Positions 48,464-56,634 of a DNA stretch of 64,000 nt are shown here, piece by piece. Made by a program: the position numbers and the translations under genes. The stretch's first letter is position 1. The number at the start of each line of letters is the position of its first letter. The stretch spans positions 62,001 through 126,000 of the forward strand of contig PQAM01000018.1 in NCBI GenBank assembly GCA_003104975.1, read 5' to 3'. The notes beneath the pieces are model-generated. The model saw only the letters and a list, made by a program, of their open reading frames with translations, made no database searches and had not been told where the DNA came from. This DNA is from Candidatus Methylomirabilota bacterium (GTDB lineage: Bacteria; Methylomirabilota; Methylomirabilia; Methylomirabilales; Methylomirabilaceae).

Positions 48464-48537
48464 GTGTCCATTGCGGACGCGGCCCGCAATGACCTGCAAC
48501 CGACTTGTATATTCTCGATCTAAAGACAGAGTGAAAC

Positions 48538-48996
48538 TTAAGGATACCGAGGTGCAATCGCCCCCTGAAGGACTTCGTCGGCGAAGTGTGCCGCCGAACG
48601 CTGGTTTAGTGAAGGGAAATTGCCGGGAAGATAATCCCCGTGGTCCGAATCTCTGCCGTCCGGACTTTGCAGATGATAGATCTCATCCGGAATAGCATGC
48701 TCACCGGCGGGTTTTGGACCGTGGTAACCGAGCGCCAACCCGACCTCATCCTTCCAGAGGAAGATAAAGGCTTGTAAGAGATCGCCGGCCGAATACGCAC
48801 CCTTCAATACCTTATCCCTGCGCGAGGCCAGCACGGCCGTGCGCTGGGCCAAAGCTACCGCCTTCCGGTACTCCTCGGGATCGGCCAAACTGAAATCGTC
48901 GATGGCCGCAGCCATCAAGCAAACCTGTCGAAGGCTGTTCCGCTCACGGGTCGACGGGCTCACCATGACCGGAACGAAGGCACCCATAACCTCCAT
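48538..48996 (-). CDS. Hypothetical protein, 152 residues
   Basis: The frame has codon use like the neighbouring genes and the protein looks globular: helical stretches such as DDFSLADPEEYRKAVALAQR and GDLLQAFIFLWKDEVGLALG, then an Asp/His-rich segment (GRDSDHGDYLPGN). I do not recognise the family. There is no convincing SD and several ATGs (48996, 48963, 48916) are possible. It could be a fragment of a larger gene. The 5' side (48997-49278) holds no gene I can support. Confidence 0.45.
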   Translation of the reverse strand: MEVMGAFVPVMVSPSTRERNSLRQVCLMAAAIDDFSLADPEEYRKAVALAQRTAVLASRRDKVLKGAYSAGDLLQAFIFLWKDEVGLALGYHGPKPAGEHAIPDEIYHLQSPDGRDSDHGDYLPGNFPSLNQRSAAHFADEVLQGAIAPRYP

Positions 48997-49278
48997 TACT
49001 TATGCAAGACTCAATAAGAATTGAGTGAGATGAATCACCGAATTGCTCCACGCCTATTGGTTGTGCGCCTTGTCAGTCCGTTTTCGATGAACCATAGTAA
49101 TAAAGGTAGTCCAAGTTTTCGGTTTGTATACCGGAAGTTCTTCTGACCGAGTTGTCAGGAGACGTGAAGTAACCGCGGCTGTTCGCGTAATTCGGCCAAG
49201 TGGGGTTGGTTTGAAGAGGACCTGCTAACACTCTCCGCCGACGAAAGCGGCGAATGACAAAAAAGAGAGGAAAGAGCG

Positions 49279-49824
49279 ATGAAACGCAGCGCAGCACTTA
49301 CAGTCATCATGGCATTGGCGCTGGGGGCGCTCCTGAGTCTCGGATCTCCAGTGCTGGCAGAAGCTCAGGTTTTTCCCCTGTTCTTCGAGGGGGGGGTCGG
49401 GGTTATCCCCGTCTCAAGTGGCGTAGGTCAGGAGCCGACCGCTGATATCGTGAACCGGAATATTGTCCGCGGCGTCCAGCCCGCCGGCCAGATCTGGGTG
49501 ATCACCGATCTTAGCGCCGACGTGGAGGCCGACGGACGGATCCGGGTCGACGGACAGGGGTTGCTGCTGGGTGGGGGCAATAACATTGGGAGGAACGCTA
49601 ACGCGAGTGTGTTTGCAACGCTGATTTGCGAAACAGTAGCCCCGTTTACGGAGCGGAACACAGACGCTGCCGGTGTACCGCTGGAAGCCAACGGCGATTT
49701 TCGGATCGACGATATGCTGACGCCGTGGCCACCGGAGGATTGCGCCAGCCCGACACTCCTCATCCGCAATGCGAGCAACCGGGGCTGGTTCGCAGCCGGT
49801 ATTCCCGAAGCCCCGGACATGTAA
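49279..49824 (+). CDS. Exported hypothetical protein
   Basis: 181 residues: signal peptide (about 1-27, ending VLA-EA), followed by a beta-rich polar domain with two Cys (about 115 and 153) that could form a disulfide. It starts at ATG 49279 with GAGGAAAGAGCG upstream and is followed by a strong terminator, so it is a single-gene unit. I recognise no family. Confidence 0.7.
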   Translation: MKRSAALTVIMALALGALLSLGSPVLAEAQVFPLFFEGGVGVIPVSSGVGQEPTADIVNRNIVRGVQPAGQIWVITDLSADVEADGRIRVDGQGLLLGGGNNIGRNANASVFATLICETVAPFTERNTDAAGVPLEANGDFRIDDMLTPWPPEDCASPTLLIRNASNRGWFAAGIPEAPDM

Positions 49825-49836
49825 TCGTCCTGGCGC

Positions 49837-49883
49837 GTCCGATGGGTGCCGAAGGGGCCTCGGCGCCCATCGGACTTTCTCAT
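49837..49883 (+). terminator. Rho-independent terminator after the exported protein
   Basis: GTCCGATGGGTGCCGA, loop AGGGGCC, TCGGCGCCCATCGGAC, then TTTCTCATTT. The 16-bp stem has one G-T pair. Confidence 0.85.
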
Positions 49884-49911
49884 TTGTCTGTCATTACGAG
49901 CACCTGAAGGC

Positions 49912-50105
49912 TGGGCGGCTCGAAGGCCCCTCCTCGCAGGACTGTAGCCTCGGCTGCTTTGACCGCCTCGGCGGTCGGCAGCATCTGCGTCTCACCGTCC
50001 ACGGAGCAGGGACCGGCCATGACCACGACTGCCGGTCCGTCGATCTCCAGATCGCCCACCCGGACGATGCTTTTGTCGCCCTCGATCCTTCGCTGCCAGT
50101 GTTGG
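49912..50105 (-). pseudogene. Internal fragment of a DAHP synthase (aroF) copy
   Basis: On the minus strand this codes for [20 protein letters not shown], then CSVDGETQML and [13 protein letters not shown], matching the region of the intact aroF at about 55792-55985. Both ends of the gene are missing here. A piece of the CATTACGAG repeat lies at its left edge. It is out of order with the aroF 3' fragment at 50689. Confidence 0.8.
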
Positions 50106-50141
50106 CGCGCCCAGGAGGATCACAGAACGCGTCGTTGGCGC

Positions 50142-50471
50142 TTAGAAGAGCGCTCCGAGAGCCGCCCCGACCACCCGGAAGGGGAAGGCAATGATCGAGC
50201 CAATCGTCCTAAAGGCATTAGTGAGAATGCCATCAGATTCCTTCTCCTTTTCCGTTGTTGTGGTGGTGGTAGTCGTGATCTCCTCAGTCTGCCGGGGCGC
50301 TGGAGCGTCGGATGGTGCAGCGGCGGCAGGCGTCTCGGGGACGATTGCGCGGTGCGTCTCGGTCCTGACCGTTGTGGTCTTTACCGTACTCGCACACCCC
50401 ATTGCGATCCACATCATCAACAACGCCGGGGTCACCCAACGGACCCCCTGGCGATTTATCCAATTGGCCAT
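50142..50471 (-). CDS. Putative small lipoprotein with a poly-threonine tract
   Basis: 109 residues. N-terminal hydrophobic segment followed by a Cys in WIAMGCAST (lipobox-like, position about 26), Pro/Ala-rich linker, then eight consecutive Thr before EKEKESDG, and an amphipathic/hydrophobic C-terminus. ATG 50471 has AAGGAGG 5 bases upstream. The Thr run is coded by a GTG/GTC-type microsatellite on the + strand, which can slip. It lies between the two aroF fragments. Function unknown. Confidence 0.65.
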   Translation of the reverse strand: MANWINRQGVRWVTPALLMMWIAMGCASTVKTTTVRTETHRAIVPETPAAAAPSDAPAPRQTEEITTTTTTTTEKEKESDGILTNAFRTIGSIIAFPFRVVGAALGALF

Positions 50472-50632
50472 GGCTACCTCCTTACTGCGGGCGTTCCGTA
50501 AGAACCGACCCGAGGGCTGTCGCAGCCCTGGCCGGCAATCTAGTCCTGGTGGGCCGGCCCCTGCTTCCACCGTGCGAAGACCACGCCCGTTTCACCTTTT
50601 CAATATGGTATACGATTCATAGGAGGTCAACT

Positions 50633-50692
50633 ATGTATTCAGCAAATGCCCTATTTGTAAGGGCGTTCCTTGGATTGGGAGGTGCGCTTTAG
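50633..50692 (+). CDS. 19-codon ORF with a strong ribosome binding site
   Basis: AGGAGG (50621-50626) sits 6 bases before ATG, and the ORF codes for MYSANALFVRAFLGLGGAL, a short hydrophobic peptide, ending in TAG that belongs to the aroF 3' fragment. A TATACGAT-like -10 lies just upstream (50608-50615). It could be a truncated gene start left by the rearrangement, a leader peptide or a small membrane toxin. Confidence 0.35.
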   Translation: MYSANALFVRAFLGLGGAL

Positions 50693-50935
50693 ATCCGGCG
50701 GCCGACAGCGAGGGCGATGGGGCGCAACTCGTCCATGAGCTGTTGGAACGTGGTGAGTTTCAGCGATTGCCGCCCGTCCGACTGGGCGGTTTCCGGGGTG
50801 GGGTGGACCTCGATAAGCAAGCCGTCGGCCCCGCAGGCCACAGAGGCTTTGTCCATTGGCGCCACATACTCCCAGTGGCCGGTCCCGTGGCTGGGGTCTG
50901 GAACCAACTGGATGGCTTTAGTAAAATGGAGCAGG
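50689..50935 (-). pseudogene. 3' fragment of a DAHP synthase (aroF) copy
   Basis: Codes on the minus strand for [20 protein letters not shown] and on to MDELRPIALAVGRRI. The last 69 residues differ from the intact aroF product at five positions, while the DNA differs at many more, mostly silent, sites. Upstream of about 50935 similarity ends and an unrelated sequence begins. It therefore lacks most of the enzyme. Confidence 0.88.
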
Positions 50936-51218
50936 TCTGCTAAGTGTCTACCGTCGGTCGAACCCACCCGCTCCACGGTGGGCGAAGGTACGCCTCCACG
51001 CAACGGCAGCATCGAAATCGACCGGATAGCAACGAATGAAAAAGCAAGGGCTTCCCCCACTCTCCAGGGGACAGTGCACTTTCGTCTTTTACGTCTCAAT
51101 AAGACCAGCCGGTTTCAGATGAATCGATTTGCACAGGATTTAGTTGGACAGTCTGACGATTCTGCTTGCACTGACAGGTCCGTTGGTGTAAATAAGCCAA
51201 TCAAGAGGAGGGATACCA

Positions 51219-51416
51219 ATGACAAAGAAAAAGGCAAAACGCGTCGTCGTCAAGCCTCTCGAGGCCGTTGGCTGGCTCGGCACTTCCGGGTATCAGACAA
51301 TTGTAGCTCGTGAGGTAATCGTGGCTGGCCCAACCGCAAAACACCCGGGGAAGGTAACGGCTAGGTCCTTACTAACCGTTCCTCGATCCGCAGCGGTAAT
51401 CATGCGACAGAAATAA
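51219..51416 (+). CDS. Small basic hypothetical protein
   Basis: 65 residues, start MTKKKAKRVVVKPLEAVGWL, with an ideal SD (GAGGAGGG, 6 bases) and a weak promoter candidate (TTGCAC, 17 bases, TAAATA) at about 51165-51193. It is basic, without recognisable domain. It ends 16 bases before the stop of the convergent deaminase gene, inside the accessory island, so a link with that gene is possible but unproven. Confidence 0.6.
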   Translation: MTKKKAKRVVVKPLEAVGWLGTSGYQTIVAREVIVAGPTAKHPGKVTARSLLTVPRSAAVIMRQK

Positions 51417-51432
51417 TTAAGTAAGAAGCTCC

Positions 51433-52752
51433 CTATCCCTGCTGCTCTTTCCGGTTTGTCGCTAAAATGGTTCTCTGCCGCGCGATATAGGGACGGGCAC
51501 GAGAAAAAATCTCGTCAAAGCGGCCAGACCTAATCCCTTCAAAACGTGTGACCTCGATATTAGCGATCTTGAGGCGATCTGCCGCGCGGATATCGGGGTA
51601 CACCTCGTTGAAGACGATCGATCCAACGCCCGCCTGCGTAATTTTCTCCGCACACTGGAAGCACGGAAACGTTGTGGTATATAAGGTCGCACCTCGTGCC
51701 CTGAGCCCAGCGATTAATAGTGCAGCAACTTCGGCGTGGATCGCGGTGCACCAGCTCATCGCCCGCTCCGGCCAAAAATACTTTTCCAGATTTGAACCGC
51801 AGCACACGCACTTCCAGGGTGGCTCCTCCGTTCTAGGCTCCGCGATGGCCCTGCCACAGTTGGGACATCTTGCTCTTTGATTTGCAAGAGTACGATATGA
51901 GTCGTAACGCACGATATCGCGATAACACCTGCCGGGAACGCCATTTTTAAGGTCGGCACCATACCCCGGCTCCTCGACACAAGGCATGGTCACGCTTGGA
52001 TTTTCGTTGAAGCCTTGGCCGACAACTTCCCCCAGTTGCGAGGGTGGGGCATCCACAAGGACCGCTCCTACCTGACGCTTCAAGCACTTGGAGCCGTGCG
52101 ATGCAGAGTACGCCAGATTCATCAGAATCTCCTCCGGCCGCGCGTACCGAGGCGATTCACCGGTCAACAGGTTGACGTAATCCACCAGCTTAGAACGCAG
52201 ACGTGTGAGAGTCACTGAATTATCGTTGTTGATCAGAACATCAGAGTTATCAACACACAGCTCTACTTGCTGTCCAAACGGATCTTCTTGGTCGCGGTCC
52301 CGTTCATTATCAGCAGTGAACTTCTCGAAGGCGTCCTCACCCTGATAAACATTCGGCAAGCGATCAAAACGATCCGAGGTTGTGCAATCAAGTGCAATGA
52401 GATAAAAATTGCGCCCAAAGTGCTCTCGTAAGGTTTGAATCTCTCCGATATTACGAATACCGTCAACGACTATCTTGTCGTAAGTGGTACCTGATTCGAG
52501 GTTTGTTAGCATCCGCCCAGCTAGCTCTCCAGGGTTGTGCGCGCTTATGCGAATCTCATTGCCGAGCGCCTGCAAATCGGATCGTTGAGGGCGCCTTCTA
52601 GGGTAACGCCTCTTCCATTCGTCACGAATTATGTCGGACAGCACAAATACAGAATAGCCGAGGCGGTCCCTTAGGATTCCCGCGGCAGTGGAGCAACCAC
52701 TCCCAAAAGGGGCCGTGAGACCAATCGCAACACTACGGCTGGAAAGGCTCAT
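51433..52752 (-). CDS. Anti-phage dCTP/dCMP deaminase, AvcD-like
   Basis: 439 residues. N-terminal P-loop kinase-like domain (GLTAPFGSGCSTAAGILRDR, about 11-30; DKIVVDGIRNIGEIQTL) followed by a zinc cytidine/deoxycytidylate deaminase domain: H339-A-E341 (CTAIHAEVAALL), C364-x2-C367 (PCFQC). An inserted zinc ribbon is CPNCGRAI ... CVCCGSN. This two-domain layout is that of AvcD, which deaminates dCTP/dCMP on phage infection and starves replication; in Vibrio it is held in check by an RNA, AvcI, encoded beside it. The gene is preceded by a hairpin-rich 218-base gap. Lower GC than the core genes. The function is inferred from domain layout. Confidence 0.85.
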   Translation of the reverse strand: MSLSSRSVAIGLTAPFGSGCSTAAGILRDRLGYSVFVLSDIIRDEWKRRYPRRRPQRSDLQALGNEIRISAHNPGELAGRMLTNLESGTTYDKIVVDGIRNIGEIQTLREHFGRNFYLIALDCTTSDRFDRLPNVYQGEDAFEKFTADNERDRDQEDPFGQQVELCVDNSDVLINNDNSVTLTRLRSKLVDYVNLLTGESPRYARPEEILMNLAYSASHGSKCLKRQVGAVLVDAPPSQLGEVVGQGFNENPSVTMPCVEEPGYGADLKNGVPGRCYRDIVRYDSYRTLANQRARCPNCGRAIAEPRTEEPPWKCVCCGSNLEKYFWPERAMSWCTAIHAEVAALLIAGLRARGATLYTTTFPCFQCAEKITQAGVGSIVFNEVYPDIRAADRLKIANIEVTRFEGIRSGRFDEIFSRARPYIARQRTILATNRKEQQG

Positions 52753-52831
52753 CGACTACTCCTTGCATTGTACTGGTTGTGACACTGTCGCTGACGTACA
52801 CCCGGCTAGGACGGGCGAAGGCCGTCTAGCG

Positions 52832-52982
52832 CTATGCCGATAAACGCCGAACAAAAAGCGGGGGATAATCCGCAAACCGCTGTGGGACCTCCCCCATGCG
52901 GTCGTCTGACGCCTGGGCTGCAGTGGCTGACACATGCCAGCGCCGGCCACTGCAGCCCTTAGTTGGGTGTTTATGCAGATAG
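52832..52982. other. Structured intergenic element with terminal inverted repeats (attC-like, or RNA-antitoxin candidate)
   Basis: Imperfect inverted ends: 52832-52852 (contains ATAAACGCCGAAC) and 52962-52982 (contains GTTGGGTGTTTAT), 15 of 21 matching. Inside are a perfect 13-bp stem (GGGCTGCAGTGGC 52915-52927 with 52946-52958, 18-base loop) and a second hairpin ACCGC/GCGGT (52876-52880 with 52898-52902). The right end contains the AIPR stop codon. Confidence 0.55.
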
Positions 52983-54143
52983 CTTCTTGTATATCGATGT
53001 GATTTGGTACAAGGCAGAATAGCAAGCTTTACTCTTGCCCATATTCCAGGGATTATGGTTGGCAATTTCCTGATAGACGGCTTTTGCTGCTCGTATTAGC
53101 TCATCTTCAGAAAAAAAGTGTGGAGGGTCGATTCGCCAACCAATGGGGGTTTTCTTGGCGAAGGCCGACAGGGAGGCAATAATCGGGAAGATAATGCCAT
53201 CCGGAACCTCCTTAATCTCCCTGCCATCTCTTTCAATTGCGCGTATACCAGTGCCGACGAAACCCTGATGGGACTTCCACTTGTCGTAAATTTCAAGGGC
53301 CTGAGCCGCGATATCCAAGTAGAACTGATATAGTTCGACATACTTACCTTGTTCTGGATCTGACGGGTCAGTCTTTCTCTTGTAGATCTCCTGAAAATCT
53401 TTCAAGCACTTAGTCTTCATGCTGTAGGTATAGACCTTGTTCATATCACCGGGCTTGAACCACAGTTCTTCTGGGACTAGAGCAGTTATGACTTGCAGGA
53501 GTCTCTCCGTCTTGATGTAATCATCTGAAAGCTTAGTCTCAGACTTTTGGAGCTTGGCATCGGGCAGTTTAGCCTGGAGGCTCTGTTCAAGCTCATCCAA
53601 TTGTCCGAGCCTTCCTGCGATTGAAATAGTCATAACATCATTCTGGAAGTTCCGGGCAATCGAGATCTCAGCAATGAGGTCTTCGTTGTCCGATACCACA
53701 ACTTCAAACTTTATGTGAGAGGGGAATACATCTTCGGGATTCCTGTTCTTAAGGAAATCCCTGATCACTCCTTGAGTCTGAGAGCCATTAATTATGCTTG
53801 GCCTCCGCAGAATAAGATATTTGTCTTTTTCGTTAATTTCACAGTCTCGTGCAACTATCACTATTCCACTATTTAATACAGAGAAGTTGTGGGGGTTGTT
53901 TTCCAGGGTATCTTGAATGGCTTTATGCACTTGAGTCGGTCTCCGCTTCTTCCTGCCCTCTGCTTCGAGAAGATAGTCGCGAACGTTTTCATCGGTAGGA
54001 AGGTCTATTGCAGCAGAGATGGGGGCATGACCAACATAAATACGTCTATTGTTGTCGATGTCTTCTGGGGAGCTAATGTGACGGACGCTGTGGAAGGGGA
54101 AATGAACTTCTTTGCTCTGCTGCGCTGCTGTGAGCCTAGGCAT
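52971..54143 (-). CDS. AIPR (abortive infection phage resistance) family protein
   Basis: 390 residues. The AIPR-type core is visible at about 95-180: FSVLNSGIVIVARD, RRPSIINGSQTQGVIRDFL and DLIAEISIARNFQNDV, the last resembling the N-Q/N-D segment of the family. Members confer phage resistance by abortive infection through an unknown biochemical activity. ATG 54143 has AAAAGGAGGAG 4 bases upstream. Base composition is AT-rich relative to the core genome. Its 3' end lies in the structured element and the AvcD-like gene follows in the same direction, suggesting a defence unit. Confidence 0.8.
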   Translation of the reverse strand: MPRLTAAQQSKEVHFPFHSVRHISSPEDIDNNRRIYVGHAPISAAIDLPTDENVRDYLLEAEGRKKRRPTQVHKAIQDTLENNPHNFSVLNSGIVIVARDCEINEKDKYLILRRPSIINGSQTQGVIRDFLKNRNPEDVFPSHIKFEVVVSDNEDLIAEISIARNFQNDVMTISIAGRLGQLDELEQSLQAKLPDAKLQKSETKLSDDYIKTERLLQVITALVPEELWFKPGDMNKVYTYSMKTKCLKDFQEIYKRKTDPSDPEQGKYVELYQFYLDIAAQALEIYDKWKSHQGFVGTGIRAIERDGREIKEVPDGIIFPIIASLSAFAKKTPIGWRIDPPHFFSEDELIRAAKAVYQEIANHNPWNMGKSKACYSALYQITSIYKKLSA

Positions 54144-54521
54144 GGCACTCCTCCTTTTGTTCAGTTGAGGCCATCCATTCAAGGCCACCAGAACCATTCT
54201 GGGGCAGGATGAGCCAACTAGAAGCAATTGTACGTGCCGCATGAAGGATGTCAAGGAAAATCGAACGCCTAACTATTCTCCCTCTACAATGATCAGCCTC
54301 TCCCAAACTGCTTTCTTTTCAGCCGAGGCAGACGGCACAGTGTTCGCTCTTGCTTGGCAGCGAATTCCCATGGACTCTGACTATGGTGTGAGCAGCTCAA
54401 AATATGGACATAGATCCTCGAAGTGTGTATATCGCTGCGCCTCAGGGGCGTTTACAGGATACGGATACTGTTATCGCCATTTTCAACAAATACGCGAAGG
54501 ACTGGTGCGTCGCTAGGCCGT
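54144..54521. other. Intergenic, AT-rich, no supported gene
   Basis: 378 bases upstream of the AIPR gene. An open frame at 54241-54516 (+) would code for 91 residues with several Cys but has no SD and reads like non-coding sequence, so I leave it out. The AIPR promoter should be here; no clear boxes were seen. Confidence 0.4.
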
Positions 54522-54761
54522 CTATGTGGCTAGCAGACTCTCTACCTCTATATCCTCATCAACCTGTGGCCAGTGGATGCCGATACCGTCACCGATCAGT
54601 TCCCACTGGGCGCGCTGTTCAGCAGTTGCCCCCAAGAGGCGAGGAAACCACTGAAGCGGCGCGGAGATCTCTCGCCCATCAGCCAGCAGCACACGCAGGG
54701 CGTCCTCGGTAAAGGATACCTCCCTGGCAAGCGGCTCAAGTTTCTCTACCAAAGTGCGCAT
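54522..54761 (-). CDS. DUF2442 family protein
   Basis: 79 residues with the family pattern VSFTEDALRVLLADGREISA, PLQWFPRLLGAT and GIGIHWPQVDEDIEVESLL. Such proteins lie beside DUF4160 genes, as here, and the pair is suspected to be a toxin-antitoxin-like module. ATG 54761 has GGAG 5 bases upstream. It overlaps the DUF4160 gene by 26 bases. Confidence 0.88.
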   Translation of the reverse strand: MRTLVEKLEPLAREVSFTEDALRVLLADGREISAPLQWFPRLLGATAEQRAQWELIGDGIGIHWPQVDEDIEVESLLAT

Positions 54762-54981
54762 ACCATCTCCTTTCAATCTCGGCCCTATTGTCCTCGATCA
54801 GCCTAGCGATCTCCTGCAATTCGTGGCTACGAAAGTTGCGGGAACGCGCAAGCTTGAGCGGTCGCATCCAATACTTCGCGTATCCTCGATCCTTTGCGAC
54901 ATGTACGTGCATCGGCTCGCCGCGATCAGGGCTGAAAAAGAAGATGCGATACCCTCGTAGGTTATGGAAAATTGTGGGCAT
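54736..54981 (-). CDS. DUF4160 family protein
   Basis: 81 residues: PTIFHNLRGYRIFFFSPDRG, EPMHVHVAKDRGYAKYW and a helical C-terminus (LQEIARLIEDNRAEIERRW). DUF4160 proteins are small and usually partnered with DUF2442. The HVHV motif could bind metal. The gene precedes and overlaps its partner. Function unproven. Confidence 0.88.
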   Translation of the reverse strand: MPTIFHNLRGYRIFFFSPDRGEPMHVHVAKDRGYAKYWMRPLKLARSRNFRSHELQEIARLIEDNRAEIERRWYAHFGRET

Positions 54982-55175
54982 ATCGGCAGCTTACCTCTAC
55001 CCTCACCTCTCCGCATGGCAGCGACAAGAACCTGACCTACCGACCTCCCTGTCATAGTCGAATCCGTTACACGAAACGGGGGAACGTATCAACGCGACCC
55101 GATGCTAATCCGCAGGTTAGTTGAATGTCAAGGATAAGGTGGAGGTGGACGACTGGGCGCGCCGAAAGCGCGAAG

Positions 55176-56192
55176 CTAGATCCGGCGGCCGACGGCCGAG
55201 GCGAGGGGGCGCAGCTCGTCCATGAGCTGCTGGAACGTATTGAGCTTGAGCGACTGCAGCCCATCCGACTGAGCCGTCTCCGGCGTCGGGTGGACCTCGA
55301 TCAGGAGGCCGTCGGCCCCGCAGGCCACAGAGGCCTTGGCCATCGGCGCCACATACTCCCAGTGGCCCGTGCCGTGGCTGGGATCGATGACGACCGGCAG
55401 GTGGGTCAGTTTGTTCAGGACCGGGACCGCACTCAGGTCGAGGGTAAAACGGGTGCTGGTCTCGAAGGTCCGAATCCCGCGCTCGCAGAGGGCGACGTTG
55501 TAGTTGCCCTCGGACAGGATATACTCGGCCGCCATGAGGAACTCCTTGATGGTAGTCGCCATCCCGCGCTTGAGCAGGACCGGCTTGCCGACCTCGCCGA
55601 CCCGCTTGAGCAGGGCGAAGTTCTGGACGTTGCGGGCGCCGATCTGCAGGATATCGGCATAGGCCGCGACCAGGTCCACGTCGTTGGGGTTGACCACCTC
55701 GGTGATGATCTTCAGCCCGGTGGCCGCCCGCGCGGTATCCAGGAACTTGAGCCCCTCCTCGGCGAGTCCCTGAAAGGCATAGGGCGAGGTGCGCGGCTTG
55801 AACGCCCCGCCCCGCAGGACGGTGGCGCCGGCCGCCTTCACCGACCGGGCGGTCTGCACCATCTGTGCCTCGCTCTCCACCGAGCAGGGGCCGGCCATGA
55901 CGACAACGGCCGGTCCGCCGATCTCCAGCTCGCCCACCCGGACGATGCTCTTGCCGCCCTTGACCTCACGGCTGGCCAGCTTGAACGGCTGGAGGATCGG
56001 AACGACCGTATCGACGCCCGGCATGACCTCGAGCGACTGCAGGCGATCCTTGCCCCGCTCATCCCCGACAGCCCCGATAACCGTCCGCTGCGTCCCCTCA
56101 ATGATATGGGCCTGGTAGCCAAGCTCCTCGATCCGCCGAATGACCTCTCGGATCTCGCTTTCGTGGGCCCCCGTTTTCATAACGATAATCAT
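55176..56192 (-). CDS. aroF: 3-deoxy-7-phosphoheptulonate synthase (DAHP synthase), class I beta
   Basis: 338 residues. N-terminal ACT/ferredoxin-like domain (about 1-70, starting [14 protein letters not shown]), then the TIM barrel: [65 protein letters not shown] and DPSHGTGH. This is the Thermotoga/Bacillus-like type, often feedback regulated through the extra domain. It makes DAHP from PEP and erythrose-4-phosphate, the first step of aromatic synthesis. It follows atpC by 7 bases in the same direction. Two broken copies of the gene lie at 49912 and 50689. Confidence 0.95.
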
Positions 56193-56199
56193 ACCGGTC

Positions 56200-56634
56200 T
56201 CATTGTTCCGACGGTCGTCCCTTGGCGGCGACCGCCATCCGGGCCAGCGCCCGCTCAAGGGCGACCTGCGCCCTGGCATGATCGATGGCCTCATCCCCAA
56301 AGCGGCGCAGCCGCTCCTCGGCCCGCGCCTTAGCCTCTTTGGCCCTGGCCACGTCGATTTCTTCCGGCCGCTCCGCCGACTCCACCAGGATGATCACCTT
56401 GTCGGGGCGAACCTCGGCGTACCCCCAGTCAACGGCCAGAAACCGCTCCTTCCGACCTCGGGTGTAGGACAGCTCGCCGATCTTCAGCGTCGTCATAAAC
56501 GGGGTATGGCCTGGCCAGACGCCGAAATACCCCTCCTGGCCGGGGGCCATCAGCTCTTCGACCTCTTCGCTGATAATCAACCGCTGAGGCGTCACCACCT
56601 CGAGCATGAATGTGTAACCGCGCTGTTCTGCCAT
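56200..56634 (-). CDS. atpC: F-type ATP synthase epsilon subunit
   Basis: 144 residues: N-terminal beta barrel ([24 protein letters not shown]-like [19 protein letters not shown]) and C-terminal helical hairpin (about 90-140). It inhibits ATP hydrolysis and is part of the rotor stalk. Last gene of the atp cluster; aroF follows. ATG 56634 is taken, an inner ATG exists at 56607. Confidence 0.94.

Follow-up and report, generated by a model that had tools for sequence, protein, structure and literature searches.

A compact AvcD-like deaminase and a short AIPR protein as probable separate defence candidates at a variable ridA-aroF site in a Candidatus Methylomirabilota genome

Anti-phage dCTP deaminases of the AvcD kind (AvcID; PADLOC dCTPase; NCBIfam NF041025) combine in one chain a P-loop kinase-like domain and a zinc deaminase domain with HAE and PCxxC motifs, and in V. 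cholerae AvcI has been placed upstream of avcD (PMC9455884; PMC10511110). The ComEB-type dCMP deaminases, such as those of T4, S. mutans and human, share the deaminase fold but have no P-loop domain. Proteins of the AIPR/AbiU family (PF10592; AbiU and MzaE in PADLOC) have been reported in association with restriction systems, and a HEPN domain has been reported in their long N-terminal part (PMC3506569). We found no paper linking an AIPR protein with an AvcD-like deaminase in the literature searched, coverage of which was partial.

One gene of each kind is found in the window analysed here, a stretch of 64,000 nucleotides from a Candidatus Methylomirabilota bacterium. The deaminase gene (51433-52752) and the AIPR gene (52971-54143) both lie on the minus strand, 218 bp apart, within an island of lower GC content. 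A preliminary description had combined them into a single anti-phage system, perhaps with an RNA antitoxin in the gap between them. Its open reading frames, its family assignments and the low GC content of the two genes (53% for the deaminase and 46% for AIPR, against 66% for the neighbouring aroF) are all borne out by our analysis; the joint system and the antitoxin are not. We are fairly confident that each gene is a single-gene defence cargo independent of the other, that both are stacked at a variable site between ridA and aroF, and that they do not encode one system as an operon. Because each gene occurs without the other in every relative that was found, we read them as separate defence genes of known types rather than as a new two-gene system. 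The deaminase is of a known kind, in which it falls into a compact subclade, and the AIPR protein belongs to a short mobile subfamily. As judged from family membership, both are most likely separate defence candidates, either of which would protect against phage. A false lead is thereby removed, and the case illustrates that adjacency in a single genome can mislead.

The deaminase is a single chain of 439 residues with an N-terminal P-loop kinase-like domain and a C-terminal zinc deaminase domain. The latter is recognized by Pfam (PF00383, E 2.2e-12), while the AAA_18/AAA_17 matches to the P-loop are weak and under their cut-offs. The kinase-like domain is present in the predicted structure, an AlphaFold model with a mean pLDDT of 88 that matches both dCMP deaminases, including those of the ComEB type, and an AMP-bound adenylate-kinase-like protein from Sulfolobus. 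The PADLOC dCTPase profile matches residues 4-422, nearly the full length (270.8 bits, E 7.6e-81). The NCBIfam NF041025 model ("antiphage_deaminase") scores 185 bits, under its equivalog cut-off of 400 bits, as expected of a relative rather than an equivalog, and the ComEB model (TIGR02571) scores 38.9 bits, under its cut-off of 219. Given the full-length PADLOC match, the intermediate NF041025 score and the low ComEB score, we place the protein as an AvcD-type relative, neither a housekeeping ComEB enzyme nor a near copy of the characterised proteins.

The deaminase motif set is intact: H339, A340, E341, P363, C364 and C367, which make up HAE and PCxxC, are invariant among 24 aligned sequences. 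The same alignment contains the P-loop variant (A/G)PFGSGC(S/T), without the Walker A lysine, which in the window protein reads APFGSGCST. Unlike AvcD, the window protein thus lacks the Walker A lysine, and it also has extra CxxC pairs, a CxxC...CxxC ribbon inserted in the deaminase domain of the window/Acidobacteriota group. It is 25-29% identical to the classical members aligned. The enzyme would most likely act as AvcD does, converting dCTP/dCMP to dUTP/dUMP upon phage infection and so depriving the phage of dC nucleotides. Having no Walker A lysine, the kinase-like domain would probably bind nucleotide and regulate activity rather than phosphorylate.

Relatives of the deaminase were gathered with an alignment query against genome contigs, and the best 80 of 538 were kept. 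Among these the closest are three Acidobacteriota proteins with 55-57% identity, followed by a second group, mainly from Clostridia, with 29-34%; the remainder are classical or long forms with ~24-32%. In a maximum-likelihood tree the window protein groups with the three Acidobacteriota proteins with a support of 100/100. The Clostridia group, which includes one long branch, joins them less securely and apart from the classical AvcD clade. The compact deaminases have 386-431 residues (439 in the window), compared with roughly 500-620 for most other relatives. This delineates a clade of compact AvcD-like proteins whose genes lack the classical upstream element discussed below, and its members can be tested as single genes. 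One could take the clade for enzymes of nucleotide metabolism with no role in defence, a reading that we consider rather unlikely. By eye, some of its members do have ordinary neighbours, such as an NrdJ-like reductase (L032), glnB/glnD-like genes (L033) and translation factor genes (L038), and the window protein, ~100 residues shorter at its C terminus, is without the C-terminal extension of classical AvcD. However, others lie in surroundings that by eye are mobile or defence-like (L035, L041 and L045), the PADLOC dCTPase match is full-length, the tested clade members scoring 266-318 bits, and presence is patchy, the gene being absent from the other genus members searched.

Two of the Clostridia deaminase loci have in common a small cysteine-rich open reading frame that shares 4 bases with the end of the deaminase gene (L040:7137-7349 and L042:7167-7409). 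No other neighbour was seen to recur in the compact clade, with the exception of one hydrolase-like match.

The AIPR protein has 390 residues from its ATG and matches PF10592 over residues 52-362 (94.9 bits against a cut-off of 25, E 9.7e-27), with the INGSQT motif of the family; no second Pfam domain is found in the 390 residues. In contrast to AbiU and MzaE, it lacks the long N-terminal region: the PADLOC AbiU profile (E 3.5e-17) matches only ~165 residues, starting at position 217 of 537, and the first ~215 profile positions have no counterpart. The MzaE profile gives 27 bits against a cut-off of 1050. Unlike in the MZA system, no MutL or Z1 partners are seen, the neighbours being the deaminase and the DUF2442/DUF4160 genes described below. 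An AlphaFold model of the protein (mean pLDDT 67) has no PDB match at E <= 0.001. Five close relatives were found, four of them on IMG/VR (virus-like) contigs (65, 54, 52 and 45% identity) and one on a Tritonibacter plasmid (50%). The viral contigs yielded relatives to alignment queries and none to single-sequence queries, and within this sample of five, L025 and L146 are closely similar and some records are short fragments. From names given by eye to translations, the relatives lie in a portal/terminase context (L145), in a Mu-like head gene context (L146), next to a reverse transcriptase (L025) and among a NotI-like endonuclease, a Dam-like methylase and an integrase (L144). These relatives delineate a short AIPR subfamily whose members come mainly from virus-like contigs and can likewise be tested as single genes. 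The protein would most likely cause abortive infection by itself, with a promoter of its own driving expression. A sigma-70-like candidate (TTGACA-16-TACAAT, 54227-54254, minus strand) precedes the gene; it is a consensus match only, of a kind no commoner here than in shuffled sequence.

At L144:1485-8424, the end of an IMG/VR contig, the NotI-like endonuclease, the Dam-like methylase, the compact AIPR gene and the integrase, all named by eye, lie inside 7 kb.

The gap between the two genes (52753-52970, minus strand; GC 61%) had been described as 218 bases rich in hairpins. The length is correct and the sequence does fold better than its own shuffles (z -3.2), but largely because of one GC-rich hairpin with a 13-bp stem (52915-52958, minus strand), which starts ~13 nt past the AIPR stop codon. 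In the five AIPR relatives the longest stems within 75 nt of the stop are 9, 13, 12, 11 and 12 bp. A stem of at least 11 bp within this distance follows five of the six AIPR genes and ~7% of 566 control ORF ends, in a comparison where two closely similar relatives bring the effective n to ~5 and long stop-to-stop frames, not curated genes, serve as controls. Since hairpins of a similar kind are found past the AIPR stop codon in the relatives, the one in the gap probably belongs to the AIPR gene; it is probably a structure at the 3' end of the AIPR transcript, which it would close or stabilise. The AIPR-associated hairpins are devoid of U tracts, and a consensus scan finds no terminator-like site between the genes. 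Read-through co-transcription is possible for this reason, and because the genes are co-oriented and 218 bp apart.

The hairpin also bears on the proposal that the deaminase is an AvcID-type toxin whose RNA antitoxin is encoded in the gap, as suggested by the folding score and by the location of AvcI in V. cholerae. We judge this improbable, as the fold is dominated by a type of hairpin that also follows AIPR genes at deaminase-free loci. Moreover, the regions upstream of three near deaminase relatives (L031-L033) have z values between 0.3 and -0.9 against a mononucleotide shuffle, close to zero, and no clear structure in common with the window, and an Rfam search of the gap gives no match near the gathering threshold. 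Classical avcD loci have a small open reading frame, mostly of 52-63 codons and ending in (L/I)xW, shortly upstream of avcD; it is missing from the window gap and from the compact clade as sampled. For 14 classical avcD upstream regions, whose sequences are too divergent, RNAalifold returns no consensus. The gap may hold an RNA regulator of another, divergent type. A broader model, which we entertain tentatively and with some doubt, is that the compact deaminase clade (the window, Acidobacteriota and perhaps Clostridia) would be an AvcI-free variant of AvcD under the control of its kinase-like domain, joined in the window/Acidobacteriota branch by the zinc-ribbon insert, and that the compact AIPR gene with its 3' hairpin would constitute a single-gene defence module that phages and mobile islands disseminate.

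The (L/I)xW frame occupies the region where the AvcI RNA has been placed in V. cholerae. It is found 12-74 nt upstream of avcD at L026, L027, L028, L030, L064, L068, L079, L085, L090, L098, L108 and L109. For the L064/L090 pair pS is 0.30 and pN 0.05, which suggests that the frame may encode a real small protein; for the L026/L098 pair the values are 0.08 and 0.05, which is less clear. Two other identities were considered for the gap. A palindrome (ACCCAAC ... GTCAGAC) resembles an integron attC site by eye, but the near-invariant GTT is here GTC and the resemblance was judged to be chance. A repeat element is ruled out by the presence of the gap sequence as a single copy in the genome.

The pairing itself is not seen elsewhere in the genomes sampled, an outcome that the preliminary description had named as counting against it. 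No AIPR gene adjoins any of the 80 deaminase loci (the best 80 of 538) among flanking open reading frames up to 6 kb away, with the window AIPR protein and its Tritonibacter relative as queries. In the three nearest relatives, from Acidobacteriota, the deaminase gene stands alone amid unrelated genes. Conversely, no deaminase is found on the records of the five close AIPR relatives (45-65% identity), some of which are short or partial; the samples of close relatives, three deaminases and five AIPR proteins, are small. Sixteen of the 80 deaminase genomes (13 of 50 and 3 of 30) do contain a PF10592 gene, yet in none of the 16 does its locus overlap the deaminase locus, and the sole stretch common to the two kinds of loci is a dispersed repeat of ~50 bp on a different contig. 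Neither gene is found in full in the other genomes of the genus that were searched. That the pair is nonetheless a genuine two-gene system recently assembled in this lineage, in which, for example, the AIPR protein senses or restrains and the deaminase depletes nucleotides, is very improbable: the common strand, the short spacing, the promoter-like site upstream of AIPR, the missing consensus terminator and the defence-type families of both proteins accord with it, but no second genome has the pair among the 80 deaminase loci or the five AIPR relatives, base composition differs between the genes and the hairpin past AIPR suggests that the AIPR unit ends there.

The independent single-gene cargos that we favour lie in an island of mosaic structure. 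The ridA-aroF interval spans 6.7 kb in the window (48464-55175), compared with ~260 bp in one single-contig relative from the genus and 1.6-2.6 kb in others. The two genes differ from each other in GC3 (56% for the deaminase and 51% for AIPR) as they do in GC, with aroF at 88%, and these differences are consistent with the genes having arrived separately at a variable site.

The interval is a variable insertion site in the genus, and duplicated fragments of both flanking genes lie inside the island. A diverged duplicate of the aroF 3' end is found at the island edge (50690-50898, minus strand; 87% to the intact copy at 55176-56300), with a further aroF fragment at 49912-50085. A decayed duplicate of the ridA 3' end follows (50957-51032, plus strand; TRSTVGEGTPPRNGSIEIDRIATNE vs ARSTVGVATLPRGASVEIDLVATTQ). 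The order, aroF end and then ridA end, is what would be expected of a remnant of tandem duplication or of recombination with an imported ridA-aroF segment. The genome also has a gene that scores above the cut-off set for the ammonia/methane monooxygenase subunit A family, which suggests that the host oxidises methane or ammonia. Between the AIPR gene and aroF, the island carries a DUF4160 gene (54736-54981, minus strand) and, as the second gene of the pair, a DUF2442 gene (54522-54776, minus strand), both identified with Pfam. The two overlap by 41 bases and are possibly a toxin-antitoxin-like module.
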